Positions 14,763-50,662 of a stretch of 64,000 bases of DNA are shown here, in pieces. The DNA is from Candidatus Thiodiazotropha endoloripes (lineage in GTDB: Bacteria > Pseudomonadota > Gammaproteobacteria > Chromatiales > Chromatiaceae): NCBI GenBank assembly GCA_001709035.1, contig LVKA01000015.1:124001-188000 (forward strand), read 5' to 3'. Position 1 is the stretch's first letter. Every line of letters starts with the position of its first letter. Position numbers and translations under genes: made by a program. The notes beneath the pieces were generated by a model. The model worked only from the letters and a program-made list of their open reading frames with translations, ran no database searches and was not told the DNA's origin.

Positions 14763-15038
14763 TCAATCTGTCTTGACCTTGAGTTTTTTCTGCTTGATCC
14801 CTTCACTATCGGCCGCTGTCCAGGTGATTCGCAGATTCAGCCGATGCTTTTCCGAATCCTGCGAAGCGGTCACTTTAAGCTGCAGTAAACCATCGGGCTT
14901 TAACTCCATTTCATCTTCATCATCACTGAGTACCAAACTGCCTTTACCGATACCCTGGGTGATCGATTTCAACAGGCGTTCTATGGAAGCACGATCCTGC
15001 AGGGATTCATGTCGAAAACTCTTTTTGCCTTGCCTCAT
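14763..15038 (-). CDS. Amphi-Trp domain protein (GAK-system type)
   Basis: A 91-residue protein with a short helical start (FRHESLQDRASIERLLKSITQGIGKGSL) followed by the strand pattern VLSDDEDEMELKPDGLLQLKVTASQD...LNLRITW. The last Trp at the end of an alternating hydrophobic strand is the feature after which the amphi-Trp domain is named. From memory, this domain is tied to the so-called GAK gene clusters (ATP-grasp, amphi-Trp, HprK-related kinase), whose function is unknown. It starts with an ATGA overlap on the metallophosphoesterase stop and is the last gene of the operon. It is a possible substrate or carrier of the modification; that is inference. Confidence 0.75.
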   Translation of the reverse strand: MRQGKKSFRHESLQDRASIERLLKSITQGIGKGSLVLSDDEDEMELKPDGLLQLKVTASQDSEKHRLNLRITWTAADSEGIKQKKLKVKTD

Positions 15039-16402
15039 GAGCTTTTTCTCTTGACGATGATTGATTTTGGATCGAACACCTTGATCTGAGGGTAGTCGGT
15101 ACTGATCCCCAACACCAGTCGATCGGGATGGAATATGGTCACGGCTGCTCCCTCCCCTATCAAGCCCTCTTTTTTGCGTGAGTGGCGATCGATGGTCGTG
15201 TCACACTCAAAGTTGAGCATACCTTTGCGCAACATGATTCGTTGGCCGTGGTAGCGATTGGCATGTCCATGCACGATCGCATAGATTCCTATTTCATTCA
15301 TCAGTCTGACTCCTTTGCGGGTCAGCGGCATATCCACATCCCGATACTTGGTTCTGATCAGATTGGCCAACGGCCCGTAGTAGAATTCAAAGATCTCATC
15401 ATCCACATCCTCCTTGAACTGTTTGTTGAGATATTTGACCCCTTTGCGATTGATCAGCTTTGCCATTCGGTCGTCGATACCCGCGTGGACGAACAGGAAA
15501 GAGCCATGATGAACCGCCAGTTTCATCTCTTTGAAGAACCAGTTGAACTCACCGTCATCCTTGAGAAACAGGCTTTGCCATTTGAGTACCGCCGCATAGG
15601 CCTGACGTAGTGACAAGCCGGCCTTTTCACAATCAGATTCGAATGAATCGATCTTCTCTCTCAGCCGTTTCAGCTCTCTGGCCATGCGATTGTCCGGCAT
15701 GACCCAGCTCGCCATCTTCGGGAACTCTTTGAACCAGCGCTTCGGCGGGTAGAGCAGACGTCGACAGTCACGGGTTGAAGGAATCCCCTGCAAAGCGGAT
15801 CTGTCCTGCAGATACTGATCGGCAATCTCACGCAACATCGGGATTGCCTTACTGCCCATGCGAATAAAGAAGTGGTCATGTCTCGGATCAGGCTCCATAC
15901 CGACCGAGGAGATACCCAGTTTGATGCGAATATCGTGATTGCCGGCCAGGATGGTGATCCTCGCTCCCAGCTTCTTCAACTGGCGGATGACCCGCAACAG
16001 CCGCAGATTGCTTGGCCCTTTGTCAAAACAATCTCCACCGATCACGAAGCTGGCCTCTCTGCCACGACGGGTCAACTTCAGGTCACCATCCTGATCGCCG
16101 GTTTTCCTTACCCCGCCGGAGGCAACCAGTGAGGAGATGAAGGCATCTGCATCCGCGTGCAGATCTGAAAAGAAGAACAGCTCCCGTTTTGGCCATTGCC
16201 ATTTCTCCTTACCCAGTACTTCGGTCAGCAGATACTCTGTGGTATTACGTTGCCCGCGCTCCTTGACGATGGAACGATGCTTGCCAAGCGGCCAGAGTTC
16301 ACTGGATGTGGGTAGATCAGGCTTGATCCACTTCAGCCCCCGGTATTTGGGGAGTCGTTTGTGATGATACTTATCGGTTTTGTTATCAGCGCTAATCGAC
16401 AA
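15035..16402 (-). CDS. Metallophosphoesterase (calcineurin-like), operon member
   Basis: A 455-residue protein of the calcineurin-like fold. The metal-binding motifs are in order: SDLHADAD near residue 79, GGDCFDKGP near 122, AGNHDIR near 154, VHAGIDDR near 306 and VHGHANRYHG near 379. An additional helical insertion lies between the third and fourth motifs. The best start is a TTG at 16402 with GGAGAGG just upstream, inside the end of the histidine phosphatase gene. No signal peptide is seen, so it should act in the cytoplasm. A phosphoprotein, phospholipid or nucleotide substrate cannot be distinguished. It overlaps both neighbours, which argues for strict co-translation. Confidence 0.85.
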   Translation of the reverse strand: MSISADNKTDKYHHKRLPKYRGLKWIKPDLPTSSELWPLGKHRSIVKERGQRNTTEYLLTEVLGKEKWQWPKRELFFFSDLHADADAFISSLVASGGVRKTGDQDGDLKLTRRGREASFVIGGDCFDKGPSNLRLLRVIRQLKKLGARITILAGNHDIRIKLGISSVGMEPDPRHDHFFIRMGSKAIPMLREIADQYLQDRSALQGIPSTRDCRRLLYPPKRWFKEFPKMASWVMPDNRMARELKRLREKIDSFESDCEKAGLSLRQAYAAVLKWQSLFLKDDGEFNWFFKEMKLAVHHGSFLFVHAGIDDRMAKLINRKGVKYLNKQFKEDVDDEIFEFYYGPLANLIRTKYRDVDMPLTRKGVRLMNEIGIYAIVHGHANRYHGQRIMLRKGMLNFECDTTIDRHSRKKEGLIGEGAAVTIFHPDRLVLGISTDYPQIKVFDPKSIIVKRKSS

Positions 16403-17096
16403 ATGCCTCTCCTCGTGAGCGGACCTTCCATTCCCCGGTTAGATGACGCCAGGATCCTGCGTAGCGGCGCTCAAGAAAAACTGGTCGACAATGATACATA
16501 CTCAAAGCCGCAATCTGATCGAATTCCAATATCCCCAGATGGTGAGCGGCATGGCGAAATGCCGCACCATGACCAACAAAAAGTTTGACGGTATCGGTAT
16601 CGACCCGCTGCTGTAACTCGGCAAGCCTATGATCCAGATGACGAGCCACTCTGACGCCCGCCTGCATCAGTGATTCAGCACCCTGCAGAGGCAGTTGGTA
16701 GTGGCTGTTCGACTTCCAGTCGGCCGGCGGCGTTTCAAAACGCGGATCATCCTGGAGTATGGATTCGATGGTCTGCCGGGTCAGATTTGCCGCAGACCCC
16801 ATACTGCGTTCGGCCAACTCATCAAAGCCCTCGATCGACAATGGTGATGAGATTGCGTCACTGAAACCCTGGCGGATGACTTCGGCGGTTTGCCAGCCAC
16901 GTAACAGATTGGAACTGTCGATCACAGGACAGAGATCCCAGTCAAACATCTGTAGCGCTCCACTCAGCAGCGTGACAGAGCGTCTCGCCTGTTGACGGCC
17001 CTGCTCAGTCAGAGGAAAGGGTTGCCAGGCACTGGGGGTATCCTTCAGCTGATGATAATCTCCATGCCTTAACAGAGCCGCAATGACACTAGGCAT
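16392..17096 (-). CDS. Histidine phosphatase family protein
   Basis: A 234-residue phosphoglycerate-mutase-like phosphatase. The catalytic RHG sits in ALLRHGDYHQ near residues 8-14. The second catalytic His lies in FVGHGAAFRHAAHHL near residue 179. The branch between them is helical, with an acidic residue region near FDELAERSMG. This places it with broad histidine phosphatases rather than true mutases. It is preceded by the SixA-NUDIX gene with a 45-nt gap and overlaps the metallophosphoesterase start. Substrate unknown. Confidence 0.85.
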   Translation of the reverse strand: MPSVIAALLRHGDYHQLKDTPSAWQPFPLTEQGRQQARRSVTLLSGALQMFDWDLCPVIDSSNLLRGWQTAEVIRQGFSDAISSPLSIEGFDELAERSMGSAANLTRQTIESILQDDPRFETPPADWKSNSHYQLPLQGAESLMQAGVRVARHLDHRLAELQQRVDTDTVKLFVGHGAAFRHAAHHLGILEFDQIAALSMYHCRPVFLERRYAGSWRHLTGEWKVRSRGEAFVD

Positions 17097-17141
17097 CGGA
17101 TATCAATCCGGATGGTGTATAACGGAATGGTAAGCACATCA

Positions 17142-18122
17142 TCACTTTTTGGATTTCTGTTTTTCAAGCATTTTTGCCAGTTTCTTGATCATTGGTTTAA
17201 GCTCAGCCTGTTTGATACGCTCGATCGCTTCATCTGGCGAGAGCCACTCCCGACCCCGATGACGCTCTTCCCACTCATCTTCCGGAATCAGATTTTTGAC
17301 CAACATTGGATAGACCTGAACGGAACACTCGGCGCCCCATTTCTCATATTTGTAACTGCCGAGGCTTTCACTTCCCACGTCACCTTCGACACCGGCCTCT
17401 TCAAATGCCTCTTTTGCCGCGGACGCCTGCAGGGTCAGCCAGGGCTCACTGATCCCTTTCGGCACCACCCAATGTTTCTGTTTACTGGAGCGGACCAGCA
17501 GAAACTCCGGCTTGCCATCCTTGATGCGATAGGGAATCACAGAAGATTGATTATAGTAGTAGGCGGGACGATCCCGCATCTCCTTGCTGGTGGGATCCGG
17601 AAATGGGAATTTTTTATCCAGACTGCTGGCACGGATTATGGAATCCAACTTACCATCCCCCGGACGTAGTTTTTTCCAGTCGTTGGGCATACTGATTCTG
17701 GCCAGGGTTGCGGTGGGGATCAGTTTGCCATCCTTTGGTAAGGGAATTCGCTTACCCTCCAGATACTCGGTCAGGGCTTCGAGACCGGGATTATGACCAA
17801 CCATCAGCACCCGCTTGGCGCTCTTCGGCGTTTCGGCAAGTACCTGCAGCAGGTCTTCAACCCTCGCGGCATAAATGCGCCGATCCTGGGTAATCTTGTC
17901 GGCATCCTGCCCCATCACCTTGACTGCCTTCTGTGCCGTGATGATGGCCCGCTCGGCAGGAGAACTGACCACATAATCGGGCTGAAGCTGATATTGCAGC
18001 AACCAGACTCCGATGCGTTGCGCACCCCGTTTGCCACGATCCTTGAGTGGACGCTTAAAGTCCTCTACCTGTTCACTCCAGTCAGACTTTCCGTGCCTGA
18101 GTAACAACAATTCACGTGCCAT
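17142..18122 (-). CDS. SixA-type histidine phosphatase fused to a NUDIX hydrolase
   Basis: A 326-residue two-domain protein. Residues 1 to about 155 form a SixA-like phosphatase (ELLLLRHGKSDWSE with the catalytic RHG, then VGHNPGLEAL). Residues about 185-320 form a NUDIX domain (SSVIPYRIKDGKPEFLLVRSS, then KGISEPWLTL...KEAFEEAGV). In the NUDIX box the RE of REUXEEXGU is KE and the first Glu is a Leu, so the motif is slightly off consensus but its EE core is kept. Mycobacterial MutT1 has the same two domains in reverse order and acts on 8-oxo-dGTP and diadenosine polyphosphates. It lies in the operon, 45 nt before the second histidine phosphatase. Confidence 0.88.
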   Translation of the reverse strand: MARELLLLRHGKSDWSEQVEDFKRPLKDRGKRGAQRIGVWLLQYQLQPDYVVSSPAERAIITAQKAVKVMGQDADKITQDRRIYAARVEDLLQVLAETPKSAKRVLMVGHNPGLEALTEYLEGKRIPLPKDGKLIPTATLARISMPNDWKKLRPGDGKLDSIIRASSLDKKFPFPDPTSKEMRDRPAYYYNQSSVIPYRIKDGKPEFLLVRSSKQKHWVVPKGISEPWLTLQASAAKEAFEEAGVEGDVGSESLGSYKYEKWGAECSVQVYPMLVKNLIPEDEWEERHRGREWLSPDEAIERIKQAELKPMIKKLAKMLEKQKSKK

Positions 18123-18235
18123 CGTCTCTCTACCTCTTAGGGCCTGTTATCTCTTCTCTACAACCATTTGAAGGTGATGCCTTATACACCATTTTTGAAA
18201 CTGACCTGTCCATCCTATTCAACACAATCTATCGA

Positions 18236-19357
18236 CTAAGTGCCGCCCCATTTGGCGATACAGAGCTCGGTCAAGGCTGCAAAATCCAATCCACCACACA
18301 CCTCATAGACAGGGATTCTATCCAATAATGCCAGGTAGGGCTCGGTGGCCAACGGCGCTTCATCCTGTAAAAAGTGACCTGATTGATCCTGATAGAATGG
18401 CCCGGGGGACTTCATTACCGCCTTCAACAGCTCTTCTCTTCCACTGATTGAAACCTGGCTCATACTAACCGGCTGGTCAGAGTCCCGATGCCAGTTGAGG
18501 ATAATCAGCCCAGCCAAAGGCACCGCTGTCGAGGTATCGATCCGACCCTTGCCGTAGAACTGTTCGACATTCACATCAAACTTCTCTTCCAGTTCCCACA
18601 ACGTCTGTTTCGGCATCGCCAACAGCTCGCTGCGGCGAGGCTCATCGATGAGTGCCTGCAGGCGTGGATTATTGACCACCGTACCGGGATTGATCCGGGG
18701 CAGCTTGGGGATGCCGACAGCCTCGACAACCTCATCCGATTCACGCAGAAACAGCCGATCATTGGTCAGAAAGCGGCTCTCTGGATGTTCCATCAGATGC
18801 AGCATCAAAGTCGACTTCCCACCACCGGAAAAGCCGGCAACCGCTACCGCATTCTTGCCCAACATCAGAGCGGCAGCGTGACAGATCAGCCAGTGTCGGT
18901 TCTGCAACCAGTTCATGATCTGGGAGTTGATGAAATTGACCAGTTGATTGTCATAGGTCAGACAGGGCCCGGCTGCAACACAGTGATCCCGGCTCTGCAG
19001 AAACAGCATGCCGGTACGCACTTTAAGAATCATACGACCATCCTGCAGCTCCAGGTAGGCATCCTTGCGGCCGGTCTTTCCAGGCTCCCGTTTCCAATCG
19101 GTAAACTGGATACCTGTCTCCAACACATCGCTCTCAATGGCCACAATCTCCAGTGCATCGTCGGCCAGCCGTTGCGGTAGGTAGGAAAAGTAGTCAGCCA
19201 AGCGGGTCAGCAGTTGCCGGCTGTTCGAGTTGATGGCGACCGATAACCCGCCCAGATTCAGATAGAGAGGGGTTTCACACAAGGTCTGCTCCTGCATCAA
19301 CAGGGCAGCGGCGGTCTTACTCTCCATCTGACGGTGTTCATCTGCTGGTTGAGTCAC
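18236..19357 (-). CDS. HprK-related kinase (GAK system)
   Basis: A 373-residue protein. The second half carries a P-loop, AGFSGGGKSTLMLHLM near residues 173-188, preceded by HWLICHAAALM, a pattern of HPr kinase/phosphorylase-related proteins. FLTNDRLFL and IPKLPRINPGTV follow. The N-terminal half has no catalytic signature I recognise. Bacterial HPr kinase phosphorylates a Ser in HPr, but these relatives have unknown substrates. The chosen GTG start overlaps the ATP-grasp stop as GTGA; an ATG ten codons in is the alternative. The 113-nt gap to the SixA-NUDIX gene is the largest inside the operon, so an internal promoter is possible. Confidence 0.82.
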   Translation of the reverse strand: MTQPADEHRQMESKTAAALLMQEQTLCETPLYLNLGGLSVAINSNSRQLLTRLADYFSYLPQRLADDALEIVAIESDVLETGIQFTDWKREPGKTGRKDAYLELQDGRMILKVRTGMLFLQSRDHCVAAGPCLTYDNQLVNFINSQIMNWLQNRHWLICHAAALMLGKNAVAVAGFSGGGKSTLMLHLMEHPESRFLTNDRLFLRESDEVVEAVGIPKLPRINPGTVVNNPRLQALIDEPRRSELLAMPKQTLWELEEKFDVNVEQFYGKGRIDTSTAVPLAGLIILNWHRDSDQPVSMSQVSISGREELLKAVMKSPGPFYQDQSGHFLQDEAPLATEPYLALLDRIPVYEVCGGLDFAALTELCIAKWGGT

Positions 19358-20244
19358 GTTGATAACGCCTCCATAACATGGGCAACATAACGGGAAGGCA
19401 CATCGATCCCCATCCCTTCATGGGCGCCGCGAAAACCGCCGAATGCGGAAACCTCGAAGACCACCGGCCCCTGGTCCGTCTCGGCCACATCCACGGTGGT
19501 GAAATCGAGCCCGAAGACCGCTTGCGCCCGCCTGGCCAGTTCGATCAGCTCATCACTGGCCTGATAACCTTCATAGTGCCCACCACTCAGAATGGTTGTG
19601 TTCCAGACACCTTTTTTGCCCACCCGGGCATAGGCCCCCAGATATTCACCGGCCAGAAATACCATCCCCAGATCCTTACCCGGCAGTTCGCGCTTCTTCT
19701 GGATATACATCACCGGATTCTGCTCGCGGAATTCGGCAATCTGTTTAGCCACCTGCTCAGAACCGCTCTGATGCTCGATTAGGGTCATACCCCTTGCCTT
19801 GGTGGAGTAGAGCGGTTTGAACACAGCCGCCTGAAACGCCTCGACTGCCTGGGCGGCCGCTTCGGGATCCTCGGTGATACGGGTCTCCGGCATGGGAATC
19901 CGGGCATTGTAGAGGGACATGGTACAGCTGAGTCGGTCGATCAGGCGGATGATCCGCTCAACCTGACTGAATACCCGTACCCCGGCCAGCTCCAGTTGCC
20001 GCAACATCTCCAGCCTGTCGAGGGTATGGGGGCTGTACTGCGCACTGATCTTTTTCACCAGCAGCGCATCGAGCCGGGTCAGATCCTCTCCCCGATAGAG
20101 CAACCTGCCACTGTCCAGCTCCGCAGTCACTTCCGCCATATCGATGACCAGCCGGTAGCCGGTCGCCTCTGCCACCGCATCGGCCAAGACTTCCGTCGAC
20201 CATTTACCGGGTATACCGACAACCCCGATTTTCGGTTTAACCAA
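19354..20244 (-). CDS. ATP-grasp enzyme, RimK-like (GAK system)
   Basis: A 296-residue RimK-type ATP-grasp ligase. It begins PKIGVVGIPGKWSTEVLADA, has a central substrate/ATP domain with FKPLYSTKARGMTLIEH, and the metal-binding end VVFEVSAFGGFRGAHEG. In RimK the last motif is ExN; here the Asn position reads Ser in EVS, so its metal site may differ. ATP-grasp enzymes join a carboxylate to an amine or thiol through an acyl phosphate. The start is TTG at 20244 with GAGGAG eight bases before it, overlapping the previous stop. Neighbouring kinase and amphi-Trp genes place it in a GAK-like cluster. Acceptor unknown. Confidence 0.85.
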   Translation of the reverse strand: MVKPKIGVVGIPGKWSTEVLADAVAEATGYRLVIDMAEVTAELDSGRLLYRGEDLTRLDALLVKKISAQYSPHTLDRLEMLRQLELAGVRVFSQVERIIRLIDRLSCTMSLYNARIPMPETRITEDPEAAAQAVEAFQAAVFKPLYSTKARGMTLIEHQSGSEQVAKQIAEFREQNPVMYIQKKRELPGKDLGMVFLAGEYLGAYARVGKKGVWNTTILSGGHYEGYQASDELIELARRAQAVFGLDFTTVDVAETDQGPVVFEVSAFGGFRGAHEGMGIDVPSRYVAHVMEALST

Positions 20245-21871
20245 TGAATATCTCCTCTATGGGTACCTTGAAACGACGTTTGGATTTAGCATTTGCCGCA
20301 AGCAGCTGCTCCATCAGATAACGTGCCCGGTAGAACATCGCTCTGGAGAGCGATTTGTCGAGAATAAACCGGGTGGAACTGACAAAGGAGCGTATCAGGC
20401 CCAGCGCCAGTCTGACCTCGAACTCCTCATCCTTGACCTTTTTCGAATAGCCACGGGCAAAGCGGTAGATGCCATGGCTGATGATCGCAATACGCTGTCG
20501 CACCCTGGGATCGAACACCTGCAGACGATAGTTCGAAATCATGAAGACTGTGATGTCCTGCAGATAATCCATATAGCGTGATCGATGCAGATCGATAAAG
20601 TTGATCCGTTGCTGCTGTTGATCGTAGATGATGTTATCGACGTTGAAATCTCCGTGGATATAGACTGAGAACGGCGCCTGGATATCGGCTTCAAGCTTCT
20701 GAACCTGTGTCAGCAGTTTGCTGAATGAGGGCAGCTTCTGGCCGCCGATGGCCAGGTTGTTCTGCTTGAATTCAGGATGTATGGCATACACATCATCCAT
20801 ACGTTTGGCGAGTTGATCCATATAGTTGGCTGAGACCGGTTTGGCCGTTCGGGTCTCATCCCAGACCTGTTTCAAGGTCTCGGTAAGATGGGTGAAGCTC
20901 TCCTGAAACAGCTTATCGGAACCACTCAACAGAATCTGCTCGAAGGTCTGTCCGGCCAGATGTTCGATCAGCATCGCTGCTGAATCGCCGCTTTTTTTAT
21001 AGGCCAGGATTTTCGGCGCCAGACCGGGAAATATCTCGTGCCAGTCGTTAACCCGCTGTTTCTCCTCCTTGAGTTTACGCTTGCCTCCATCCTTGAAGAT
21101 CCCGTGATAGCCAGATTCACCGGTACTGGCCACCGCATTGATCGCACTGCCGGATTTGGTCTGTGCGATGGTCTGCACCTGCAGACCATCCATCTCATTC
21201 ACCGCCTTCAGTTCGGTCAGGGAGGCATTCAATGTGTGGTAACGATCGGTATTGAAGTGCTGTCCCATGGCGGCCGAGATGATCGCTTCGCTGATGCGTA
21301 ACAGGGCGTTACCCATCTGCTCGATGTTACGGCCCAACATGATCAGGGAGATATGATCCGCCGGATACTTATCTTTCTTCAGAAGTTTCGAATAGCTCAG
21401 CAACTGTTTTTGATAGGCCTGATCGAGACGCTGCTCCACCCGACCGATCTTCAATGCCCGACGGGTGTCCTTGTCCGCCAGTGCCGGCTCGATCATCTCC
21501 AATGCCTTCAGCACCCGCTCCAGCATGGGGAGATACTTGCCCCGCTTCAACAGACGTTTCTGCTCCACCTGCAGGGACTGCAACATCGCCTCCCGGCTCA
21601 GTTCGGTGATCCGCTCCAGATGGGTGGCAACATCTTCAACCGCCCGCAGCAGTTGCTTGCTTCCGCCCTGATTGTCCGCAGCGGCATGCTCGGAGAGGCA
21701 GTGGTTGTGAATGCTCAAACGCAGATTCTCCACATAACCTTTGCGATCGAGCAGTCGGGATGGTGGTGTGTTGGCGGTTGTTGCAAGATAGTCCCGCAAC
21801 ACGCTCAGATGCGAGGCCGTTTCAGCGAGCAGGAATTGTAGATTGTCATTAATCGCCTTCGGTAGGGACAT
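20237..21871 (-). CDS. PhoU-like domain fused to an aminoglycoside-phosphotransferase-fold kinase
   Basis: A 544-residue protein. The first 210 residues are helical and resemble PhoU, with the telling ISLIMLGRNIEQMGNALLRISEAI segment near residue 185. The second part (about 240-540) has a choline/aminoglycoside kinase fold: GYHGIFKDGGKRKLKEEKQRV early, then VYIHGDFNVDNIIYD with the catalytic HGDFNxxN, and INFIDLHRSRYMDYLQD with the metal Asp. No signal peptide. PhoU proteins read phosphate status beside PstSCAB and PhoR, so a phosphate-sensing kinase is an attractive guess. The ATG at 21871 follows the NUDIX stop by one base; a TTG at 21880 is possible. Confidence 0.78.
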   Translation of the reverse strand: MSLPKAINDNLQFLLAETASHLSVLRDYLATTANTPPSRLLDRKGYVENLRLSIHNHCLSEHAAADNQGGSKQLLRAVEDVATHLERITELSREAMLQSLQVEQKRLLKRGKYLPMLERVLKALEMIEPALADKDTRRALKIGRVEQRLDQAYQKQLLSYSKLLKKDKYPADHISLIMLGRNIEQMGNALLRISEAIISAAMGQHFNTDRYHTLNASLTELKAVNEMDGLQVQTIAQTKSGSAINAVASTGESGYHGIFKDGGKRKLKEEKQRVNDWHEIFPGLAPKILAYKKSGDSAAMLIEHLAGQTFEQILLSGSDKLFQESFTHLTETLKQVWDETRTAKPVSANYMDQLAKRMDDVYAIHPEFKQNNLAIGGQKLPSFSKLLTQVQKLEADIQAPFSVYIHGDFNVDNIIYDQQQQRINFIDLHRSRYMDYLQDITVFMISNYRLQVFDPRVRQRIAIISHGIYRFARGYSKKVKDEEFEVRLALGLIRSFVSSTRFILDKSLSRAMFYRARYLMEQLLAANAKSKRRFKVPIEEIFIG

Positions 21872-21872
21872 C

Positions 21873-22361
21873 TCAGTCAATCACTCCCAGATAGAGGGGT
21901 TTTACGCCTTGCAACACCGGCTGCAGATCGAGCTCAAGACTTTTTGGAAAAAGTTCGACCTGGGAAAACTCAGCAAATGGCAGCCATACCACCTCGACCT
22001 GGTGTTTGTCAGGATGAACTCCAGGGCCAGGACGATAGTCATCCGGGACGGAACAGGCGAACAGAAACTCGATCAGATGACGGCTTGAGGGGGGCTCGGT
22101 TCTGCGTTGTTTGTAGAAGTCGGCGACAGCCAACAGGCCGTCCACCACCACCCTGGTGCCGATCTCCTCTTCACACTCTCTCTGCAGAGCTTGGGTCAAG
22201 CTCTCCTGCACCTCTTGACCACCCCCAGGCAAGGTGTACCAGAAGCCCCTCTCCTGCTGCCATTTTTTCTGCATCAAAACGGCTTCATCTCGCACAATCA
22301 CAGCACGCACAGCATTTCGGATATCGGCGTCCAGGCCTGTCAATTCACTTGCCTGTCTCAT
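21873..22361 (-). CDS. NUDIX hydrolase
   Basis: A 162-residue protein with a complete NUDIX box: GGQEVQESLTQALQRECEEEIG, fitting GX5EX7REUXEEXG, near residues 48-70. NUDIX enzymes cleave nucleoside diphosphates linked to another group. The leading RNAVRAVIVRDEAVLMQKKW strand and the late EVVWLPFAEF region are ordinary for the fold. It lies 43 nt after dgkA and its stop is one base away from the PhoU-kinase ATG. It is the second NUDIX domain of the operon, so the pathway may handle a diphosphate. Confidence 0.88.
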   Translation of the reverse strand: MRQASELTGLDADIRNAVRAVIVRDEAVLMQKKWQQERGFWYTLPGGGQEVQESLTQALQRECEEEIGTRVVVDGLLAVADFYKQRRTEPPSSRHLIEFLFACSVPDDYRPGPGVHPDKHQVEVVWLPFAEFSQVELFPKSLELDLQPVLQGVKPLYLGVID

Positions 22362-22404
22362 AATAATGTTTAACGCACTTCTCCCACGATCTATTCGAGT
22401 AAGC

Positions 22405-22773
22405 TTAGAAAAACAGCACCATAATCCAGCACAGAGCCACCAGCATCAGCGATACCAGCACAGCGGCTGAACCCTGATCCTTGGCACGCCCGGAGAGCTT
22501 ATGGTTCTCGGTACTGATTCGATCCACCACGCTTTCGATAGCACTGTTCAGCAGCTCTACGATCAATACGATCAGTAACGGCCCGACAAGCAGTGCCTTC
22601 TCGACTCCATTATCACCCAGCAAAAGCCCCAAAGGAGCGAGGATGATCAGCAGCAGCACCTCCTGACGGAAGGCCTCCTCGTTCTTATAGGTAGACCGAA
22701 ATCCCTTCATTGACCAGCGCATTGCGTTGATCAATCGCCGGAGCCCAACATTACGTTCGCCTTGCATCACCAT
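22405..22773 (-). CDS. dgkA: Diacylglycerol kinase
   Basis: A 122-residue integral membrane kinase with three predicted membrane segments. The catalytic motif NEEAFRQEV near residue 31 and VELLNSAIESVVDRIS near residue 72 are those of DgkA. It phosphorylates diacylglycerol to phosphatidic acid at the inner membrane. It is the first gene of the long minus-strand operon and diverges from plcP, whose product should release diacylglycerol; DgkA would return surplus DAG to phospholipid synthesis. A Pho-box-like repeat lies 42-82 bp upstream of the start, oriented toward plcP. Whether it also affects dgkA is unknown. Confidence 0.95.
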   Translation of the reverse strand: MVMQGERNVGLRRLINAMRWSMKGFRSTYKNEEAFRQEVLLLIILAPLGLLLGDNGVEKALLVGPLLIVLIVELLNSAIESVVDRISTENHKLSGRAKDQGSAAVLVSLMLVALCWIMVLFF

Positions 22774-23156: not shown

Positions 23157-23972
23157 ATGGCATCACTGAAATATAAAAGTCTGTTTCTGTCCGATACCCA
23201 TCTTGGACTGAGAGCCGCCCGCACCGAGTATCTGCTCGATTTCCTCAAACATACCGAAAGCGAAAACCTCTATCTGGTCGGCGATATTCTCGATTTTTGG
23301 AAGATGCGCTCCGGTTGGTTCTGGCCTTCGATTAACAACGAGATCATCAACCTGGTGATCAACAAAGCCAAGCAGGGCACCCGGGTGATCTACGTACCGG
23401 GCAACCATGACGAGCTGCTGCGCGACTATCTCAACTTCCACTTCTCGGGGATCGAGATCCACAAGGAGATCATCCACAAGACCGAGGATGATCGCCAGTT
23501 CCTGGTACTCCACGGGGATGAGTTCGACGGTGTGGTGATGAACAACAAATGGCTGGCCCACCTGGGCAGCGACGCCTACGACCTGCTGCTCTGGCTGAAT
23601 CGCTGGTTCAATGTCGCCAGGCGACGTTTGGGGTTTGGTTACTGGTCCCTCTCTGCCTATCTCAAGCACCAAGTCAAAGAGGCGGTGAAGTATATCGGCA
23701 ATTTCGAACAGGCGGTGATCCAGGCCGCCCGTGAACGGCAGTTGGACGGAGTGATCTGTGGACATATTCACCATGCGGTGATCAGTGATCTGGATGGTCT
23801 GACCTACGCCAACTGCGGGGACTGGGTGGAGAGCTGTACCGCTCTGGCTGAAGAGGCGGACGGCTCACTGAAACTGATCCACTGGGTCGACGAATCAATG
23901 CAACTTATCGATAAGAGAGAAGATGACTATGCGGATAGCGATACTGACGGACGCGTGGTACCCACAAATTAA
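23157..23972 (+). CDS. plcP: Phospholipase C-type metallophosphoesterase PlcP (lipid remodelling)
   Basis: A 271-residue calcineurin-like phosphoesterase with LSDTHLG near residue 13, VGDILDFWKM near 41, VPGNHDELLRDYL near 82, LHGDEFD near 118 and CGHIHHAV near 200. It resembles LpxH relatives often named UDP-2,3-diacylglucosamine diphosphatase, but the detailed pattern (WFWP, LGFGYWSLSA, CGDWVESCTA) is that of PlcP from Sinorhizobium and marine bacteria. PlcP removes the phosphate head group from phospholipids to give diacylglycerol under phosphate starvation. The adjoining glycosyltransferase gene, which overlaps by 50 nt, and the upstream Pho-box-like repeat agree with that reading. Confidence 0.87.
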   Translation: MASLKYKSLFLSDTHLGLRAARTEYLLDFLKHTESENLYLVGDILDFWKMRSGWFWPSINNEIINLVINKAKQGTRVIYVPGNHDELLRDYLNFHFSGIEIHKEIIHKTEDDRQFLVLHGDEFDGVVMNNKWLAHLGSDAYDLLLWLNRWFNVARRRLGFGYWSLSAYLKHQVKEAVKYIGNFEQAVIQAARERQLDGVICGHIHHAVISDLDGLTYANCGDWVESCTALAEEADGSLKLIHWVDESMQLIDKREDDYADSDTDGRVVPTN

Positions 23973-24963
23973 CGGCGTCGTACGTACGCTGAACAAAACC
24001 ATTACCATCCTGGAGCAGTGGGGTCATGAGATCCTCTGCATCAATCCGGAGCTGTTTCGGACATTGCCAATGCCAACCTATCCGGATATTCCGCTCTCTC
24101 TGTTTCCCTATGGCAAAATCAAAAAGCTGTTGAATGAGTTCAATCCCGATGCGATCCATCTCTCTACCGAGGGACCGATCGGCTGGGCGGGCCGGCGTTA
24201 CTGTCTGCGCCACGACTTTCCCTACACCACCACCTACCACACCCGTTTTCCAGAATATGTACGATTGCGGGCACCTATCCCTCTCGCCCTTTCCTACGCC
24301 TTCGTCAGAACGTTTCACGGTAAAGCGACCCTCACCATGGTTGCCACCAGCTCGATGAAGGCCACCCTGGAAGAACACGGTTTCAAAAATCTGGAGTACT
24401 GGACCCGGGGTGTCGATATCGACCACTTCGTACCCAGGAAGGAGAAGGCGCTGGATCTCGAAGGTCCCATCTCCCTCTACCTCGGTCGGGTTGCGGTGGA
24501 AAAGAACATCCAGGACTTTCTCGATCTGGATATCCCAGGCTCAAAGGTTGTGATCGGTGACGGACCGGCAATGGCCAGTCTCAAGAAAAAGTACCCGGAT
24601 GTCCACTTCCTCGGCTACCGTAAAAACGGCGATCTGGCCAACCTGCTGGCAGCGGCGGATGTAATGGTCTTCCCAAGCCGCACCGATACCTTCGGTCTGG
24701 TGATGCTGGAGGCTATGGCCTGTGGCGTGCCAGTGGCCACCTACCCGGTGGAAGGTCCATTGGACGTGATCAAAAACGGCATCAACGGCTGGATGGACGA
24801 AGATCTCAAAACTGCGGCGACCAAAGCCCTGGAAGTCGACAGAAAGAGCTGCCGGGAGTTTGCCGAGCAGTACTCCTGGGAGGCTTGTACCCAGCAGTTT
24901 CTAAATCTGATTCAGAAGAACTGTCCAGATTCAGCGACAGAGGCTGTTGAGAAGACCAGTTAG
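23923..24963 (+). CDS. GT4 glycosyltransferase, probable Agt partner of PlcP
   Basis: A 346-residue GT-B glycosyltransferase of family 4. It begins RIAILTDAWYPQINGVVRTL, the donor-independent N-terminal pattern of lipid glycosyltransferases, and has the C-terminal EX7E motif region TFGLVMLEAMACGVPVATYPVEGP near residues 257-280. Beside plcP, such proteins (Agt) transfer sugars onto diacylglycerol and replace phospholipids by glycolipids when phosphate is short. The start ATG overlaps the end of plcP by 50 nt; a second in-frame ATG lies two codons later at 23929. The nature of the sugar cannot be told. Confidence 0.87.
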   Translation: MTMRIAILTDAWYPQINGVVRTLNKTITILEQWGHEILCINPELFRTLPMPTYPDIPLSLFPYGKIKKLLNEFNPDAIHLSTEGPIGWAGRRYCLRHDFPYTTTYHTRFPEYVRLRAPIPLALSYAFVRTFHGKATLTMVATSSMKATLEEHGFKNLEYWTRGVDIDHFVPRKEKALDLEGPISLYLGRVAVEKNIQDFLDLDIPGSKVVIGDGPAMASLKKKYPDVHFLGYRKNGDLANLLAAADVMVFPSRTDTFGLVMLEAMACGVPVATYPVEGPLDVIKNGINGWMDEDLKTAATKALEVDRKSCREFAEQYSWEACTQQFLNLIQKNCPDSATEAVEKTS

Positions 24964-30500: not shown

Positions 30501-30746
30501 TGTACAGTCTATCGCTTGACTGCGGGATCTTGAAGCCTCAGCTATGAAGCCGGGAAGTGCCAAACACCGCGAGGGAGGCCTCATTGAAAAGCGGCAAACG
30601 CCAGCCTGCCGGGGTTCAGGCATCCCCACCAGTGTTATTCGGCCACCTTTATTTCTCATATTTAAGAAATATATTACACATTATCCACCACCCAACATAT
30701 GTTTCTTGCTTTTAAGTAATTATTGACTTATTGCTCAGCATCATCC

Positions 30747-30774
30747 TATAGTTTCTCTTATTGGAGAAACTATA
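30747..30774 (+). promoter_or_regulatory. Operator palindrome of hipBA, covering the hipB ribosome site
   Basis: A perfect inverted repeat, TATAGTTTCTC and GAGAAACTATA, with a 6-bp centre. Its right arm contains the GGAGAA ribosome site of hipB and ends at the first base of the start codon. This is the expected position of a self-repressing HipB site. Binding is inferred. Confidence 0.75.
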
Positions 30775-31067
30775 TGGCCCGAAAAATTACGCCCTTACCC
30801 CTGCCCACCTCCCCGGTCGTCGATTCGGTTGAGGCGTTTGGCGCGTTTGTACGGAGCCTGCGCACGCAACAACAACTGCGCATCGATGATGCCGCTGCAC
30901 TGTGCGGTGTTTCGGTTCAACTGCTCTCGGATCTTGAAAATGGCAACCGTTCCGTCGGCCTGGACAAGGCCCTGGCGGTTGCACAGCAACTGGGGCTCAC
31001 CCTGCTGGCGGTACCAAAATCGGCGCAATCCCAGGCAATTGCAGCCATCAAGCGTCAGTCATTATGA
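30774..31067 (+). CDS. hipB: HipB-like antitoxin / repressor (Xre family)
   Basis: A 97-residue DNA-binding protein. The helix-turn-helix lies at about residues 25-75 (FVRSLRTQQQLRIDDAAALC, then GVSVQLLSDLENGNRSVGLD). The ATG at 30774 is chosen because GGAGAA precedes it by seven bases. HipB neutralises HipA and represses their common promoter. Its last codons overlap the hipA start by four bases (ATGA), so the two are translationally coupled. Located in the accessory island. Confidence 0.9.
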   Translation: MARKITPLPLPTSPVVDSVEAFGAFVRSLRTQQQLRIDDAAALCGVSVQLLSDLENGNRSVGLDKALAVAQQLGLTLLAVPKSAQSQAIAAIKRQSL

Positions 31068-32392
31068 CAACCCACAGCCTTTCAGCCTGGATTGGTGAAC
31101 AACAGGTTGGCACCCTGAGCTATCACGACGATACCGGGCGCTTCTCGTTTGAATACGAACCGGCCTGGATGACGAATAGCGGTGCTTATCCCATATCCCC
31201 CCCCCTCCCGTTTTGGCGTCCGGACGGCCAAACCGATGAACTGCACTCGGTCAACGTACGCCGCTTCTTTGAGAATCTGCTGCCCGAGGGCAAAGCCCTG
31301 GAGGATGCGGCTGCAGCGCACATGGTCTCAAAAGGCAACCTGTTTGGTCTGCTGCGCTGGCTAGGCCAGGAAAGTACCGGTGCGCTTGCACTGTTGCCTG
31401 AAGACACCCTGTCGGCCCAGCTTGAACCGAGCGTGCGTGAAGTCAGCTTTGAAGAGCTCTCCGAGCGTATCCACGACCGGGCCAATCGCCCCTTCAATGT
31501 ATGGGACGGCCGGGTACGCATGTCCATTGCCGGTTACCAGGATAAACTGGCGGTCTATGTTGATGAGGAAGGAAAACTGTTCCTGGTGGAAGGCCGGCTG
31601 GCGTCGACGCATATCCTCAAACCGGAGCCGCTAAACCCAAAGCTCTCCAGGTTGGTGGCCAATGAGCACTTTTGCCTGAAGCTGGCTGCCGCGCTCGGTA
31701 TACCCTCGGCCGAGGTAGAAATTCTACGCGTGCCGGAGCCGGTACTGATGGTCAAACGCTTCGACCGCATCAAACACAACCGCCATGTCGAGCGTTTACA
31801 CGCGGTGGATAGCTGCCAGGTGCTCAATCTCAGCGTCAACCACAAATATGAACGCAATTTCGGCAGTGGACGTGATGTCGCCACTATTCGGGACGGCGTT
31901 GGTTTCGAGAGGCTCTTCTCCATCGCGCCGCTCACCCAGTCTGAAGCGGCCACTCGCATGGCACTGATCCGTTGGGCGATCCTGCAATACCTGATCGGCA
32001 ATAGTGATGCCCATGGTAAAAATATCTCGTTTCTGGTCGAGTCGGGCGGCCTGCGCCTCGCCCCTGCTTACGACCTGGTTTCGGTGTGCATCTATCCGGA
32101 TATCGAACACGAATTCGCCATGGCCATCGGAGACGAGTTCGATATGACTAAAGTCCGTGCCTTCGATTGGGCAGACTTTTCCGACCGCTGTGGCATAGCA
32201 CGCCGCCTTCTGGTGCGTGAGATGAACCGAATGATCAAAGCGCTCAGAATCCAGCTGCCGACATTACTGTCTCTGCCCAATTACATTGAGGAAGAGCGTG
32301 CCATGCTGCAGAAGATCTCGGACCTGGCCCTGCAACAGGCTGAGCGACTGGAAATCGATGCGAAAATGATTGCGAAAGTGGTAATTGAATAG
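31064..32392 (+). CDS. hipA: HipA-type serine/threonine kinase toxin
   Basis: A 442-residue kinase of the HipA family. The N-terminal couple domain (GTLSYHDDTGRFSFEYEPAW) is followed by the HipA C domain. The conserved STHILKPE loop near residue 184 holds the Ser that is autophosphorylated in E. coli HipA. The catalytic loop GNSDAHGKN is near residues 312-320 and the metal-binding APAYDLVS near 333-340. E. coli HipA phosphorylates glutamyl-tRNA synthetase and causes growth arrest; relatives have other targets. All catalytic residues look intact, so the module may be active. Confidence 0.93.
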   Translation: MTTHSLSAWIGEQQVGTLSYHDDTGRFSFEYEPAWMTNSGAYPISPPLPFWRPDGQTDELHSVNVRRFFENLLPEGKALEDAAAAHMVSKGNLFGLLRWLGQESTGALALLPEDTLSAQLEPSVREVSFEELSERIHDRANRPFNVWDGRVRMSIAGYQDKLAVYVDEEGKLFLVEGRLASTHILKPEPLNPKLSRLVANEHFCLKLAAALGIPSAEVEILRVPEPVLMVKRFDRIKHNRHVERLHAVDSCQVLNLSVNHKYERNFGSGRDVATIRDGVGFERLFSIAPLTQSEAATRMALIRWAILQYLIGNSDAHGKNISFLVESGGLRLAPAYDLVSVCIYPDIEHEFAMAIGDEFDMTKVRAFDWADFSDRCGIARRLLVREMNRMIKALRIQLPTLLSLPNYIEEERAMLQKISDLALQQAERLEIDAKMIAKVVIE

Positions 32393-45177: not shown

Positions 45178-46665
45178 CTACTGAGGCATCAGGGTATTAC
45201 GATAAACCTCGTTGCCATCGACGTCGATCACCGACAGAGTGAACTGACCCTGCTCATCGATCTCTGCAGCACCGAAATTCATCCACTGACGGGCCTCCTG
45301 ATAACTGCCTACATTGGAAGACTCGGGACCGTAGAAAAACAGACTCTCGGTACCCAGGGTTGTATCGAAGTCACGATTGGGAAACAGCCCGGCGTTCATC
45401 GGACCGGTTACCCCTTCATGCACATGGAAGTCGGGATCTTCAGCAAACGGGGTGTAACGGAAGATCTCGGCAAAGTGCACATCGGTGGTAATGAAGACAA
45501 TATTTCTCTCTCCCTGTTGATGCATAAACTTCAGCAGATCCCGCAGCTCCTGTTCAAACCCTCTGGGCTGATCGAAGTCGGCCCAGCCATCCCGTCCGTT
45601 TTCCACGGGAAATCCGGTCGGGATTGAGATCGGCACGCTGGAGACAATGACCTTCCAGGTTGCATCACTCTGTTTGATGGTCTGTTTGACCCAAGTGAGC
45701 TGCTCCCGACCCAACATGGTCTTGACCAGCACCTCATCGTCCGCTTCAAGATTGGCATCACGATACTGGCGATTATCCAGTACGATCAGCTCCAAATGCT
45801 GGCCCCAGCGGATATTGCGGTATAAACGACCCGGTGTACGCGAGGACTCGGCGATCGGATTGTAATCGAGGAAGGCCTGCAGACCCATTGGCAACAGATG
45901 CTCACCTGGCGTATAGGGAGCGGTATCCCGGGTATCGTGCAATGGACCGAAATCGTTGACCACCTCATGATCATCCCAGATGGCGACATAGGGCGTCTGG
46001 CGAAGCATCTCGTTGTAGTTCAGCTCTTCCCGGTTGTACTTCCAATGCGCCCAGTAGTTGTCCAGATCAGCCGATTGAATGAAATCCCCGGCAATCTGTT
46101 GATTGCCATAGCGTCCCACCGCTTCACACACCCCGTCGGCGTAGATCATGTCGCCCAGGCCGATGAAGAAGTCAGGCTTCAGATCGTTGACCGCGGCAAA
46201 GATTGGAAATCCTTCGTCCGCATCTCGACAGACATTCTGTCCGGCCACATCACCTCCCCAGGCAAAACTGACCTCCGCTTTACTGTTTGCCTTGGGTGCG
46301 GTTTTAAAATGTCCCGACTCAGAATTGTCATCATCGCGACTGCGTTTCGACTCTGTAAACCAGACTTTATACTCATAATCTTTATCGGCCTTCAGTCCGT
46401 TGAAAAGCACCTTACCGGTGTAGTCCCCACGGGCATCCACCTTGACGGTCTTCACTTTCTTACCCCGAACCGGACCGTCGATTTTGACATGCATGTAACC
46501 CTCACCGTCTGTACGTGACCAGATCACGGCAGAACGGCCAGTGACATCACCACTGGCCACACCATGGGTAACCGGCATCGCTTCATCACCACCGGCAGAA
46601 ACCGTCGTCGTAGCCGCCGCGCCAATGGCCAGCATCAGACTAAGCATGAGTGAGTTGTATTTCAT
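45178..46665 (-). CDS. phoD: PhoD-like alkaline phosphatase
   Basis: A 495-residue secreted phosphatase. A signal peptide (KYNSLMLSLMLAIGAAATTT-VSA) precedes a Fibronectin-like PhoD N-domain with VTHGVASGDVTGRSAVIWSR. The metallophosphatase core has GDMIYADG, VAIWDDHEVVNDFG, LDNRQYRD and TTDVHFAEIF. The ATG at 46665 with GGAGAG in front was chosen. The signal lacks a clear twin-arginine motif, although PhoD proteins usually use Tat. It hydrolyses phosphomonoesters or diesters outside the cytoplasm and belongs to a cluster of secreted phosphorus enzymes. Confidence 0.9.
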   Translation of the reverse strand: MKYNSLMLSLMLAIGAAATTTVSAGGDEAMPVTHGVASGDVTGRSAVIWSRTDGEGYMHVKIDGPVRGKKVKTVKVDARGDYTGKVLFNGLKADKDYEYKVWFTESKRSRDDDNSESGHFKTAPKANSKAEVSFAWGGDVAGQNVCRDADEGFPIFAAVNDLKPDFFIGLGDMIYADGVCEAVGRYGNQQIAGDFIQSADLDNYWAHWKYNREELNYNEMLRQTPYVAIWDDHEVVNDFGPLHDTRDTAPYTPGEHLLPMGLQAFLDYNPIAESSRTPGRLYRNIRWGQHLELIVLDNRQYRDANLEADDEVLVKTMLGREQLTWVKQTIKQSDATWKVIVSSVPISIPTGFPVENGRDGWADFDQPRGFEQELRDLLKFMHQQGERNIVFITTDVHFAEIFRYTPFAEDPDFHVHEGVTGPMNAGLFPNRDFDTTLGTESLFFYGPESSNVGSYQEARQWMNFGAAEIDEQGQFTLSVIDVDGNEVYRNTLMPQ

Positions 46666-47010
46666 TGTTGCACTCTCCATATGGTCATTAAAAAAGTCCG
46701 GCAACCAGACAGACTGATGTCGTCTGTTGAATAGCGTTCAGTGCTGAAAGTGATCCGTCTGGTCGTCGGTCAATAGAAGGAGTGCTAAGTAAATCGTGTG
46801 ACTGTTGCCTGGAAATGATGATTCGGTTAAAACTGGATGATCATTCCTTAGTTGTTGTTTAAGCTTCTTTTTTAGGTCTGTTTTGCGACTGCTATACTTT
46901 CAGAATGCCGTAACATGAGTATCAATAAACCACCATTTTGTTAACATGAATGACATTGAAACCAAGTTCTGCAAACCATTTAAACTTGCAATGCTTTGCT
47001 GGAGACATTG
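46666..47010. other. Divergent region phoD / beta-propeller gene
   Basis: 345 bp without a gene. It separates two divergent genes and must hold both promoters. Two phrases with 'taacatgag/taacatgaatgaca' lie at 46910-46955. No convincing Pho box was found. Confidence 0.4.
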
Positions 47011-48984: not shown

Positions 48985-49102
48985 AGCAGAACAAGACCTC
49001 AAAGTCGGTACTTGCCAAAGGCTTTCACAACCCCCATTCATCAGCTTGGTGAGGAGTGAACTCTGTGTGCGTTCTTATTCAGCCAGTGCCGGTTAAAAAA
49101 TA

Positions 49103-50326
49103 TCAGTAGCTGCTCAGACGGTCCTCCATGACATTACACTCTTCATTCAGTGTGACATGCCAGGGACAATCTGAAAGCGCTTTAAAATAACCCACTTCGT
49201 AGAGCCTCTGCATGTAGACCGGATCGAAAAAATCATTCAGCGGTTCGTCGAAGTCAGCGGGTACATTGGTGATATGAATATCGAAGCCGTCCCGTTCAGC
49301 CAGACTGGAGATATTCAACAGATTACCACGCCCTTGGTATTTGATCAGCGTACTGATCGAACGACTGGTGATATCACCGACACCCAACCCGACAGGAGCA
49401 TATTCCGGATCTATCTTGGTATTTCGAATCAACCAGAATGACTTTTGGGGATGCAGATCAAGCTGTTTCTCTATCTCCCTCACCTGCAGTCCTCGGGGAT
49501 AGACAAAGATCTGGGAAGTGACACCGCCATCAACATGTACTTCCTGAAACTGTTCCCCATCAATCTCAACATCCAGAACAACCGGTGGAAACACACCGGG
49601 TATCGAAGCTGAGGCGAGCATGATTTTCTGAATCAACTGTTTTGCACCGGGACGACCGCTTGCGGCAATCCTGCCGATCTCCCAGACAACGGGTCGCTGG
49701 GCGTCGATATTGGTGGTGGCGATCTGCAGAATCCGCCCTTTTCGACTCTCTCTGGCAATAGCCTCCACCATATCATCATCAACTTCCTGACTGATGATTT
49801 TTTGCAGCGGTTTTGTGTCGCCTAACGCCGATCCGCCAAACAGTGCGCTGAAAGGAGTAAGAATGAAGATATCCTGTTTGGAGGATTGGGTGAAGAGCCG
49901 CTTGATCGCATCATCGTAGGCTGAGCCTAAAAAGGCAAAAGGAGCGATCAAGGCGCCGGTGGAAATACCGGTGACCATGAAGAATTCAGGACGCCCTCCC
50001 CGATCACTCCAACCTTTGAGGAATCCTGCACCATAGGCTCCATCTTCTGCACCGCCGGACAGGGCCAGCAGATCGAACCGCTGTTTCCACTCTGGATTGC
50101 TCTCAATGCTGATACGCAGATTTTCGATCGCTTCATCAAGATAGGGGGCCGGTTTATCCCCCCAGAATCTTATATTTTTGTAACCTGAAACCTGGACACT
50201 CTCATAATGATGTTCCGCCGGAGCGGGAAACTGTCGCTGCACGGAGCTGCACCCGGAGATCAACAGCAAAATCAGCGCAAACCATGGCACTTTGCTGAAT
50301 ACAAACTGATAGTTAGGTTTTCTCAC
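49103..50326 (-). CDS. Patatin-like phospholipase, lipoprotein
   Basis: A 407-residue protein. The signal peptide ends in LLLISGC, a lipobox. The patatin domain (about 85-330) has the oxyanion motif SGGAEDGAYGAGFL, the nucleophile in GISTGA and the Asp of VHVDGGV, so the Ser-Asp dyad is complete. Such enzymes cleave acyl chains from phospholipids at the cell envelope. In a cluster with phosphatases and a nuclease it may take part in lipid turnover. Surface orientation is unknown. Confidence 0.9.
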   Translation of the reverse strand: MRKPNYQFVFSKVPWFALILLLISGCSSVQRQFPAPAEHHYESVQVSGYKNIRFWGDKPAPYLDEAIENLRISIESNPEWKQRFDLLALSGGAEDGAYGAGFLKGWSDRGGRPEFFMVTGISTGALIAPFAFLGSAYDDAIKRLFTQSSKQDIFILTPFSALFGGSALGDTKPLQKIISQEVDDDMVEAIARESRKGRILQIATTNIDAQRPVVWEIGRIAASGRPGAKQLIQKIMLASASIPGVFPPVVLDVEIDGEQFQEVHVDGGVTSQIFVYPRGLQVREIEKQLDLHPQKSFWLIRNTKIDPEYAPVGLGVGDITSRSISTLIKYQGRGNLLNISSLAERDGFDIHITNVPADFDEPLNDFFDPVYMQRLYEVGYFKALSDCPWHVTLNEECNVMEDRLSSY

Positions 50327-50627: not shown

Positions 50628-50662
50628 AAAGAAAAAGCGGATAACATCCCTGTTATCCGCTT
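50628..50662 (-). terminator. Rho-independent terminator of the extracellular nuclease gene
   Basis: Minus-strand stem AAGCGGATAACA with its perfect complement (12 bp, 4-base loop), followed by TTTTTCTTTT, 45 nt after the stop. Confidence 0.9.

Follow-up and report, generated by a model that had tools for sequence, protein, structure and literature searches.

An operon of the GAK kind

This report concerns nine consecutive genes at positions 14763-22773, on the minus strand, of a 64,000-nucleotide stretch of Candidatus Thiodiazotropha endoloripes DNA (contig LVKA01000015.1, positions 124,001 to 188,000; hereafter the window), which include an operon of the kind named GAK in the NCBIfam library. 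The window is part of contig C14 of a 4.87 Mb genome, and its ATP-grasp protein is 98% identical to one from a Candidatus Thiodiazotropha. An earlier account, made from the letters alone (the sequence-only reading), had described nine minus-strand genes and proposed that they make and remove a phosphorylated compound or tag in connection with phosphate status. Nine open reading frames (ORFs; all ORF models were made mechanically) were found at the coordinates it had given, and its domain types hold in Pfam and NCBIfam searches, so that the observation itself is confirmed. The genes are as follows, all bit scores being those of the window proteins.

14763-15038, minus strand: amphi-Trp domain protein, 91 amino acids, core (TIGR04354, 66 bits, cut-off 31; PF20068)
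15035-16402, minus strand: ApaH-like (PPP-type) metallophosphatase, 455 amino acids, core (Metallophos, PF00149)
16392-17096, minus strand: histidine phosphatase of branch 1, 234 amino acids, core (His_Phos_1, PF00300, 58.8 bits)
17142-18122, minus strand: SixA-like phosphatase fused to a DIPP-like NUDIX hydrolase, 326 amino acids, common accessory (His_Phos_1, PF00300, and NUDIX, PF00293)
18236-19357, minus strand: HprK-related kinase B (HprK_B) with a PEPCK-like two-domain fold, 373 amino acids, core (HprK_rel_B, TIGR04355, 331 bits, cut-off 200; no match in the Pfam search)
19354-20244, minus strand: GAK ATP-grasp, RimK/MptN-like, 296 amino acids, core (grasp_GAK, TIGR04356, 428 bits, cut-off 300; RimK, PF08443, 59.7 bits, cut-off 21)
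20237-21880, minus strand: PhoU domain fused to an APH-like kinase (PhoU-kinase), 547 amino acids, core (PhoU, PF01895, 31 bits, cut-off 23.5; APH, PF01636)
21873-22361, minus strand: NUDIX hydrolase, 162 amino acids, common accessory (PF00293, 63 bits)
22405-22773, minus strand: DgkA diacylglycerol kinase, a lineage-specific same-strand neighbour outside the conserved unit (DAGK_prokar, PF01219, 111 bits)

Of the eight junctions, five are overlaps of 4-11 nucleotides (amphi-Trp/metallophosphatase 4, metallophosphatase/histidine phosphatase 11, HprK_B/ATP-grasp 4, ATP-grasp/PhoU-kinase 8, PhoU-kinase/NUDIX 8), and the remaining three junctions are gaps of 43, 45 and 113 nucleotides. A promoter and terminator scan of the operon gave signals no stronger than those in shuffled sequence.

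The kinase, the ATP-grasp and the amphi-Trp protein, which the sequence-only reading had expected to match GAK models, all score over the NCBIfam cut-offs. Another member of the set lay outside its view: the CofD-like gene (TIGR04357, 535 bits, cut-off 340) is found in the same genome on another contig (G000:C1:21447-22550). The model for the XXXCH component (TIGR04358, cut-off 40) is exceeded in 0 of 14 GAK genomes, the window's genome giving a partial match of 24 bits on yet another contig; we judge this component optional, and the assignment to GAK therefore rests on the other four models. The families are thus named in a curated library, yet the names “amphi-Trp”, “HprK-related kinase” and “GAK system” were not found in the open literature, a scope that takes in few subscription papers, and the same search returned nothing joining at least three of CofD-like, HPr kinase, ATP-grasp and PhoU. 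The operon belongs to the named GAK kind and is uncharacterised as far as the literature searched shows.

A six-gene core and its variable neighbours

Within a phylum sample of 398 genomes, the GAK ATP-grasp scores over cut-off in 13 and HprK_B in 14. At E<=1e-20, HprK_B is found in 16 genomes, namely all 13 with the ATP-grasp and three (G033, G140, G184) of the 385 without an over-cut-off ATP-grasp. In each of these three the gene lies at a contig end or about 200 nucleotides from one: a truncated gene at the contig start next to a truncated ATP-grasp (G033), a full-length gene 213 nucleotides from the contig start (G140), and a fragment at the contig start (G184). The amphi-Trp domain scores over cut-off in 21 genomes, comprising 12 of the 13 ATP-grasp genomes, G184, and eight genomes with neither an over-cut-off ATP-grasp nor HprK_B, and is therefore not specific for GAK. 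The family also matches in Haloferax volcanii.

A wider scan with one genome per GTDB species found 498 ATP-grasp relatives, the best 80 loci of which were kept; with 13 stretches from the phylum sample and the window they make up 94 loci, near copies included (L036 and L097 are from the same contig). Genes were counted as present anywhere within a locus, and three loci with no called ATP-grasp ORF (L096, L116, L123) were left out of this table. The core consists of the PhoU-kinase, ATP-grasp, HprK_B, histidine phosphatase, metallophosphatase and amphi-Trp genes; it extends across alpha- and gammaproteobacteria and the planctomycete Stieleria, a span that is a lower bound because the best 80 of 498 loci were used. 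Where a locus extends 7 kb or more downstream, HprK_B is present in 59 of 60 cases, the metallophosphatase in 57, the amphi-Trp gene in 55, the histidine phosphatase in 54 and the SixA-NUDIX fusion in 48. Where it extends 5 kb or more upstream, the PhoU-kinase is present in 68 of 69 cases; the NUDIX gene follows with 42, the CofD-like gene with 27 and DgkA with 14. The SixA-NUDIX, NUDIX and CofD-like genes are thus accessories, and DgkA is lineage-specific.

The usual order is (NUDIX)-PhoU-kinase-ATP-grasp-HprK_B-(SixA-NUDIX)-histidine phosphatase-metallophosphatase-amphi-Trp, with a minority rearranged. Adjacent PhoU-kinase and ATP-grasp genes overlap or lie no more than 30 nucleotides apart in all 88 pairs (94 loci, near copies included), so that the arrangement is more than chance; the same spacing holds for 75 of 79 adjacent ATP-grasp/HprK_B pairs. 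Three loci (L092, L104, L118) have HprK_B apart from the ATP-grasp, in the order ATP-grasp, histidine phosphatase, metallophosphatase, a divergent gene of about 380 amino acids, a gene of about 190 amino acids, HprK_B; in L118 the divergent gene encodes an Exo_endo_phos protein and the smaller one has no Pfam match. An apparent amphi-Trp/metallophosphatase fusion in L121 turned out to be merely the tail of the metallophosphatase ahead of the amphi-Trp gene.

The sequence-only expectation that all nine neighbours are conserved together stands for eight of them and fails for DgkA, which we reject as a part of the operon. Counted over loci with 5 kb or more upstream, DgkA occurs in 14 of the 15 from the Thiodiazotropha group and in none of the other 54. 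This bears on a role in lipid or envelope phosphate metabolism, which could be read from DgkA together with a metallophosphoesterase and a glycosyltransferase gene at 23157-24963, divergent from the operon, since all three adjoin it. Throughout the 94 loci these neighbours occur in the Thiodiazotropha group only, save one member of the glycosyltransferase cluster in L035; the conservation table largely refutes such a role, and we consider it extremely unlikely.

Halomonas, Marinobacter and Thalassospira strains are among the named carriers, as are sulfur-oxidising symbionts; many carriers are marine, halophilic or sulfur-oxidising symbionts, as judged by record titles without a control. One contig binned as “Halobacteria archaeon” (L075) carries a GAK operon whose ATP-grasp clusters, with weak support, with gammaproteobacterial sequences in the tree; the contig is probably mis-binned.

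Catalytic positions and candidate activities

In the core enzymes, every catalytic position checked is the same in all relatives counted; the residue counts given here include the window protein, and length filters removed some matches beforehand. HprK_B has the HprK catalytic fold with a Walker A motif, and His160, Lys181, Asn199 and Asp200 are each present in 85/85 full-length relatives. Its predicted structure (AlphaFold2; mean predicted local distance difference test score, pLDDT, 94.7) matches PEPCK from residue 8 to residue 373 (Z 16.0, root-mean-square deviation 4.7, 307 residues) and Lactobacillus casei HprK over residues 155-373 only (Z 14.1, root-mean-square deviation 2.7, 134 residues), hence the overall build is PEPCK-like. 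This build favours, without proving, a small substrate, and the likeness over the whole length to PEPCK, a small-molecule enzyme, was counted for a small-molecule product.

Two departures from related enzymes are universal. One is Asn199 of HprK_B, which with Asp200 takes the place of the Asp-Asp catalytic pair of HprK, a pair also present in the motif of lasso-peptide kinases. The other is Ser266 of the ATP-grasp, where RimK has Asn as its third metal ligand; Asp252, Glu264 and Ser266 are found in 93/93 relatives. The ATP-grasp matches the amino-acid ligases RimK, LysX and MptN. It scores 102 bits with the RimK subfamily model TIGR00768 (cut-off 143) and is therefore called merely RimK-like; its second NCBIfam match is MptN at 149 bits, below the cut-off of 350. 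In the PhoU-kinase, Asp411, Asn416 and Asp430 are present in 89/89 full-length relatives; its profile matches APH(3') and, over positions 8-221, PhoU in the PDB, and the NCBIfam cut-offs for PhoU equivalogs are not reached.

The CofD-like gene scores over cut-off in 5/14 GAK genomes, the window's included, is unmatched in the other 9/14, and hence cannot be a requirement of the core reaction. A gene of about 400 amino acids adjoins the operon in 30 loci, nearly always divergently, and reads as the GAK CofD-like family; two of these genes, one in G014 and one in G050, coincide in position with matches of the CofD-like model. The surroundings of the unlinked CofD-like gene in three genomes held no GAK-core gene. 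At two loci of one genus (L132 and L133, genomes G158 and G142) the unlinked gene has in its vicinity what look, by eye, like genes for glycerol-3-phosphate (Ugp-type) uptake and a glycerophosphodiesterase, which is not so in the window's genome. By analogy with coenzyme F420, a CofD-like transferase and an MptN/CofF-like ligase might build a phosphodiester-linked, glutamate-capped molecule, the remaining enzymes acting as kinases and tidying phosphatases; the shared locus in 27/69 cases and the MptN match speak for such a cofactor. The absence of a CofD-like match from most of the 14 genomes speaks against it, the neighbouring genes showed no evident CofC-like or redox partner (no model search was aimed at these), and the phosphate linkage described below would be left unexplained. 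We regard this as quite unlikely.

The hydrolases are likewise conserved. Arg10, His11, Arg66, Glu96 and His176 of the histidine phosphatase are each present in 76/76 full-length relatives, and eight PPP-type motif residues of the metallophosphatase in 71/71 each. The best PDB profile matches of the latter are diadenosine tetraphosphate (Ap4A) hydrolases (E 7e-4); its score of 22.3 bits with the ApaH model PRK00166 (cut-off 176), together with the conserved PPP-type residues, makes it ApaH-like. Single-sequence phmmer searches of the PDB with the metallophosphatase, HprK_B and the histidine phosphatase gave nothing credible, profiles doing better for the two phosphatases. The SixA half of the fusion keeps its Arg-His-Gly less strictly (R 65/68, H 61/68, G 64/68) and scores 52.5 bits with TIGR00249 (cut-off 74.5), so we call it SixA-like. 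The nearest structures to the NUDIX half are DIPP 1-3 (E 4e-9, for DIPP3-alpha, to 1e-7), with an aligned R-x-R-E-W stretch in which Arg289 and Arg291 are each kept in 65/68.

The yeast DIPP relative DDP1 cuts polyphosphate, diadenosine polyphosphates and inositol pyrophosphates (PMC8064635). With two NUDIX domains in the operon and Ap4A hydrolases as the best matches of the metallophosphatase, the system could be a house-cleaning one, in which NUDIX, ApaH-like and histidine phosphatases would salvage or detoxify dinucleoside polyphosphates and damaged nucleotides and the kinases would recycle the products. The NUDIX genes are, however, more dispensable, whereas the ATP-grasp and HprK_B are core, and neither the PhoU half nor the linkage to CHAD and sodium/phosphate (Na/Pi) cotransporter genes would be explained; we hold this to be very unlikely.

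The amphi-Trp protein is predicted (AlphaFold2, mean pLDDT 86) to form a helix and four strands after its His10-x-Ser12 motif, and comparison of this fold with the PDB gave no credible match (Foldseek best E 1.1; VIA best Z 2.4), which does not by itself imply a new fold. GAK-linked members commonly begin with F-x-H-x-S-L-Q-D, with Ser12 in 62/64 and His10 in 61/64 (Tyr in 3/64). In the stand-alone members from genomes without HprK_B, by contrast, position 12 is Lys or Gly in 8/8 and His occurs at position 10 in none. Gene contexts of stand-alone members are mixed; one (L141:3108-3311) has a heparinase-like gene on one side and a Ppx/GppA phosphatase gene on the other. The idea that amphi-Trp proteins end in a conserved acceptor for the ATP-grasp was rejected, as no such C-terminal feature was seen.

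These residues form the basis of the main rival to a small-molecule product, a protein relay in which the amphi-Trp protein would be an HPr-like phosphocarrier: HprK_B would phosphorylate Ser12, a phosphohistidine would form on His10, the SixA-like and histidine phosphatases would remove it, and the phosphorylation state would signal phosphate status. Beyond the difference between linked and stand-alone members, the fit of the HprK fold to the C-terminal part of HprK_B argues for it, as does the presence of an HPr-kinase-related enzyme and a SixA-type phosphatase in one operon. NPr is HPr-like, and lasso-peptide kinases are HPr-kinase-like. SixA dephosphorylates the phosphocarrier NPr (PMC7948535), and lasso-peptide kinases have a His-Lys-Asp-Asp motif and can polyphosphorylate a peptide Ser (PMC9266682). 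Several points tell against the relay. Because stand-alone amphi-Trp proteins belong to other subfamilies, they differ from the linked ones at further residues as well, and the alignment at the N terminus covers little sequence; three linked members, as mentioned, have Tyr in place of His10; at an Asp of the lasso-peptide kinase motif, HprK_B carries Asn199; its PEPCK-like N-terminal domain suggests a small substrate; and the ATP-grasp and ApaH-like enzyme are left without a role. On balance we find the relay doubtful.

Linkage to phosphate genes and comparison with known systems

We surveyed Pfam domains in 223 of 274 proteins of at least 150 amino acids encoded up to four genes away from the operon at 56 loci, leaving out core and CofD-cluster genes, Thiodiazotropha-group loci and near copies; the commonest include CBS (16), CNNM (13), CHAD (9), Na/Pi cotransporter (8), PhoU (7) and His_Phos_1 (6). 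CHAD domains are polyphosphate-binding and often lie within polyphosphate operons (PMC6537752). In a linkage test on 49 GAK genomes, a set without short contigs or near copies and with a single Thiodiazotropha-group member, all genes of the three kinds were counted in each genome so as to allow for copy number. CHAD genes lie within 15 kb of the ATP-grasp in 10 (0.43 expected), Na/Pi cotransporter genes in 11 (0.49) and PPK1 genes, a weaker case, in 4 (0.36), where expected values presume uniform gene placement and Poisson values ignore kinship. On the ATP-grasp tree this distribution needs six state changes for CHAD, six for Na/Pi and two for PPK1, any of which may be losses.

Positions of the linked genes vary. 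CHAD lies directly upstream of the operon in Stieleria (L117), with two permease genes and a PstS-like gene downstream; it is followed by a ParA-like gene upstream in G156, stands between metallophosphatase and amphi-Trp in G116, and is upstream and divergent in L066, L069, L073 and L079. A set upstream of the operon in Ketobacter (L106) reads by eye as pstSCAB-phoU. A ParA/MinD-like ATPase gene accompanies CHAD near GAK in seven loci (L037, L039, L066, L069, L073, L075, L124), and perhaps, as a guess, positions polyphosphate granules.

Because the operon lies near phosphate-uptake and polyphosphate genes above chance, the linkage suggests that GAK makes and unmakes a phosphate-bearing signal or store, and phosphate homeostasis is probably its setting. 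We propose that GAK is a phosphate-homeostasis module which builds and strips, in a cycle, a compound with phosphate ester or phosphoanhydride groups, possibly amino-acid-capped; for this full statement, steps included, we put the probability at roughly 40%. The PhoU half of the PhoU-kinase would sense phosphate status and its APH-like half would phosphorylate a hydroxyl; the PEPCK-shaped HprK_B would add or transfer a further phosphate; and the RimK/MptN-like ATP-grasp would attach an amino acid, or another carboxylate or amine, to the phosphorylated compound. The DIPP-like NUDIX-SixA protein, the ApaH-like metallophosphatase and the histidine phosphatase would remove the phosphates again, and the amphi-Trp protein may bind or carry the product, with an output acting on inorganic phosphate uptake and polyphosphate. 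We infer the reactions, their order, the small-molecule nature of the product and its regulatory output from gene content, conserved order, invariant positions, domain relationships and the linkage seen in some GAK genomes.

Several observations weigh against this proposal. CHAD, Na/Pi and PPK1 are all absent within 15 kb in 33 of the 49 genomes, including that of the window, which has genes for all three on contigs other than the operon's. A PPK1 match is absent altogether in 7/49 (G014, 99% complete, and six of unstated completeness). Loci are related and the inner branches of the tree are weak (9/46 starred), the starred ones forcing just two changes for CHAD and two for Na/Pi in a grouped comparison, so the number of independent linkage events is uncertain. 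CNNM/CBS (CorC-type) transporters are the commonest neighbours (L066, L069, L073, L075, L077, L086, L091, L092, L094, L100, L118), in raw counts without copy-number control, and neighbourhood is no proof of a shared pathway. The tie to phosphate status drawn from the sequence alone thus finds backing in the 49 genomes and none in the window's own. A phosphorylated compound or tag that is made and removed fits the results, and the earlier interpretation as a whole is partly supported.

Two further regions of the window may be recorded here. A run at 45178-57230, 22-34 kb from the operon, is likely a phosphate-scavenging one (PhoD phosphatase, PhoX-like protein, large Exo_endo_phos nuclease, patatin-like lipase, calcineurin-like phosphoesterase). 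At 30723-32392 lies a HipB-like/HipA toxin-antitoxin-type pair, with HipA domains confirmed at 31064-32392 and the smaller gene read by eye.

The analysis delimits the core gene set, removes one gene wrongly included in it, finds the catalytic positions retained, and provides a phosphate/polyphosphate lead and two amphi-Trp residues to mutate; with Halomonas, Marinobacter and Thalassospira strains among the carriers, the question of GAK function is directly testable. Relative to GAK as defined in NCBIfam (TIGR04354-TIGR04358), the likeness is that the ATP-grasp, HprK_B and amphi-Trp genes share one operon with a CofD-like gene elsewhere in the genome. The differences are the XXXCH component, over cut-off in no GAK genome searched, and the further core (PhoU-kinase, metallophosphatase, histidine phosphatase) and phosphate-gene linkage, present in no description found (the model pages not being among these). 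With HPr kinase/phosphorylase and the phosphotransferase system, GAK shares a P-loop kinase that has the catalytic fold of HprK and keeps the conserved His and Lys, but HprK_B has an extra PEPCK-like N-terminal domain and Asn in the Asp-Asp position, and no HPr or phosphotransferase-system gene is among the nine. The late steps of coenzyme F420 synthesis (CofD, CofF/MptN) have counterparts in the CofD-like and MptN-like enzymes, but the former is optional and the latter falls short of the MptN cut-off.

PPIP5K combines an ATP-grasp with a histidine phosphatase. GAK resembles inositol pyrophosphate/polyphosphate homeostasis of eukaryotes (PPIP5K, DIPP NUDIX, SPX) in that a DIPP-like NUDIX hydrolase and a histidine phosphatase go with an ATP-grasp, and in that genes for polyphosphate and phosphate transport are close by in some genomes. 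The likeness is one of parts only, as the GAK ATP-grasp matches amino-acid ligases, its phosphatase is of branch 1, and no inositol kinase or SPX domain was noticed here (no model search was aimed at these). GAK could even be a second bacterial phosphate-signalling system apart from PhoU-PhoR-Pst, an idea that we rate as slightly more doubtful than the relay: either a counterpart of inositol pyrophosphate signalling, with a pyrophosphorylated molecule made by the kinases and ligase and erased by the DIPP-like NUDIX, or an HPr-like relay on His10 and Ser12 of the amphi-Trp protein, controlled by HprK_B and SixA, with the PhoU-kinase as sensor and polyphosphate as output.

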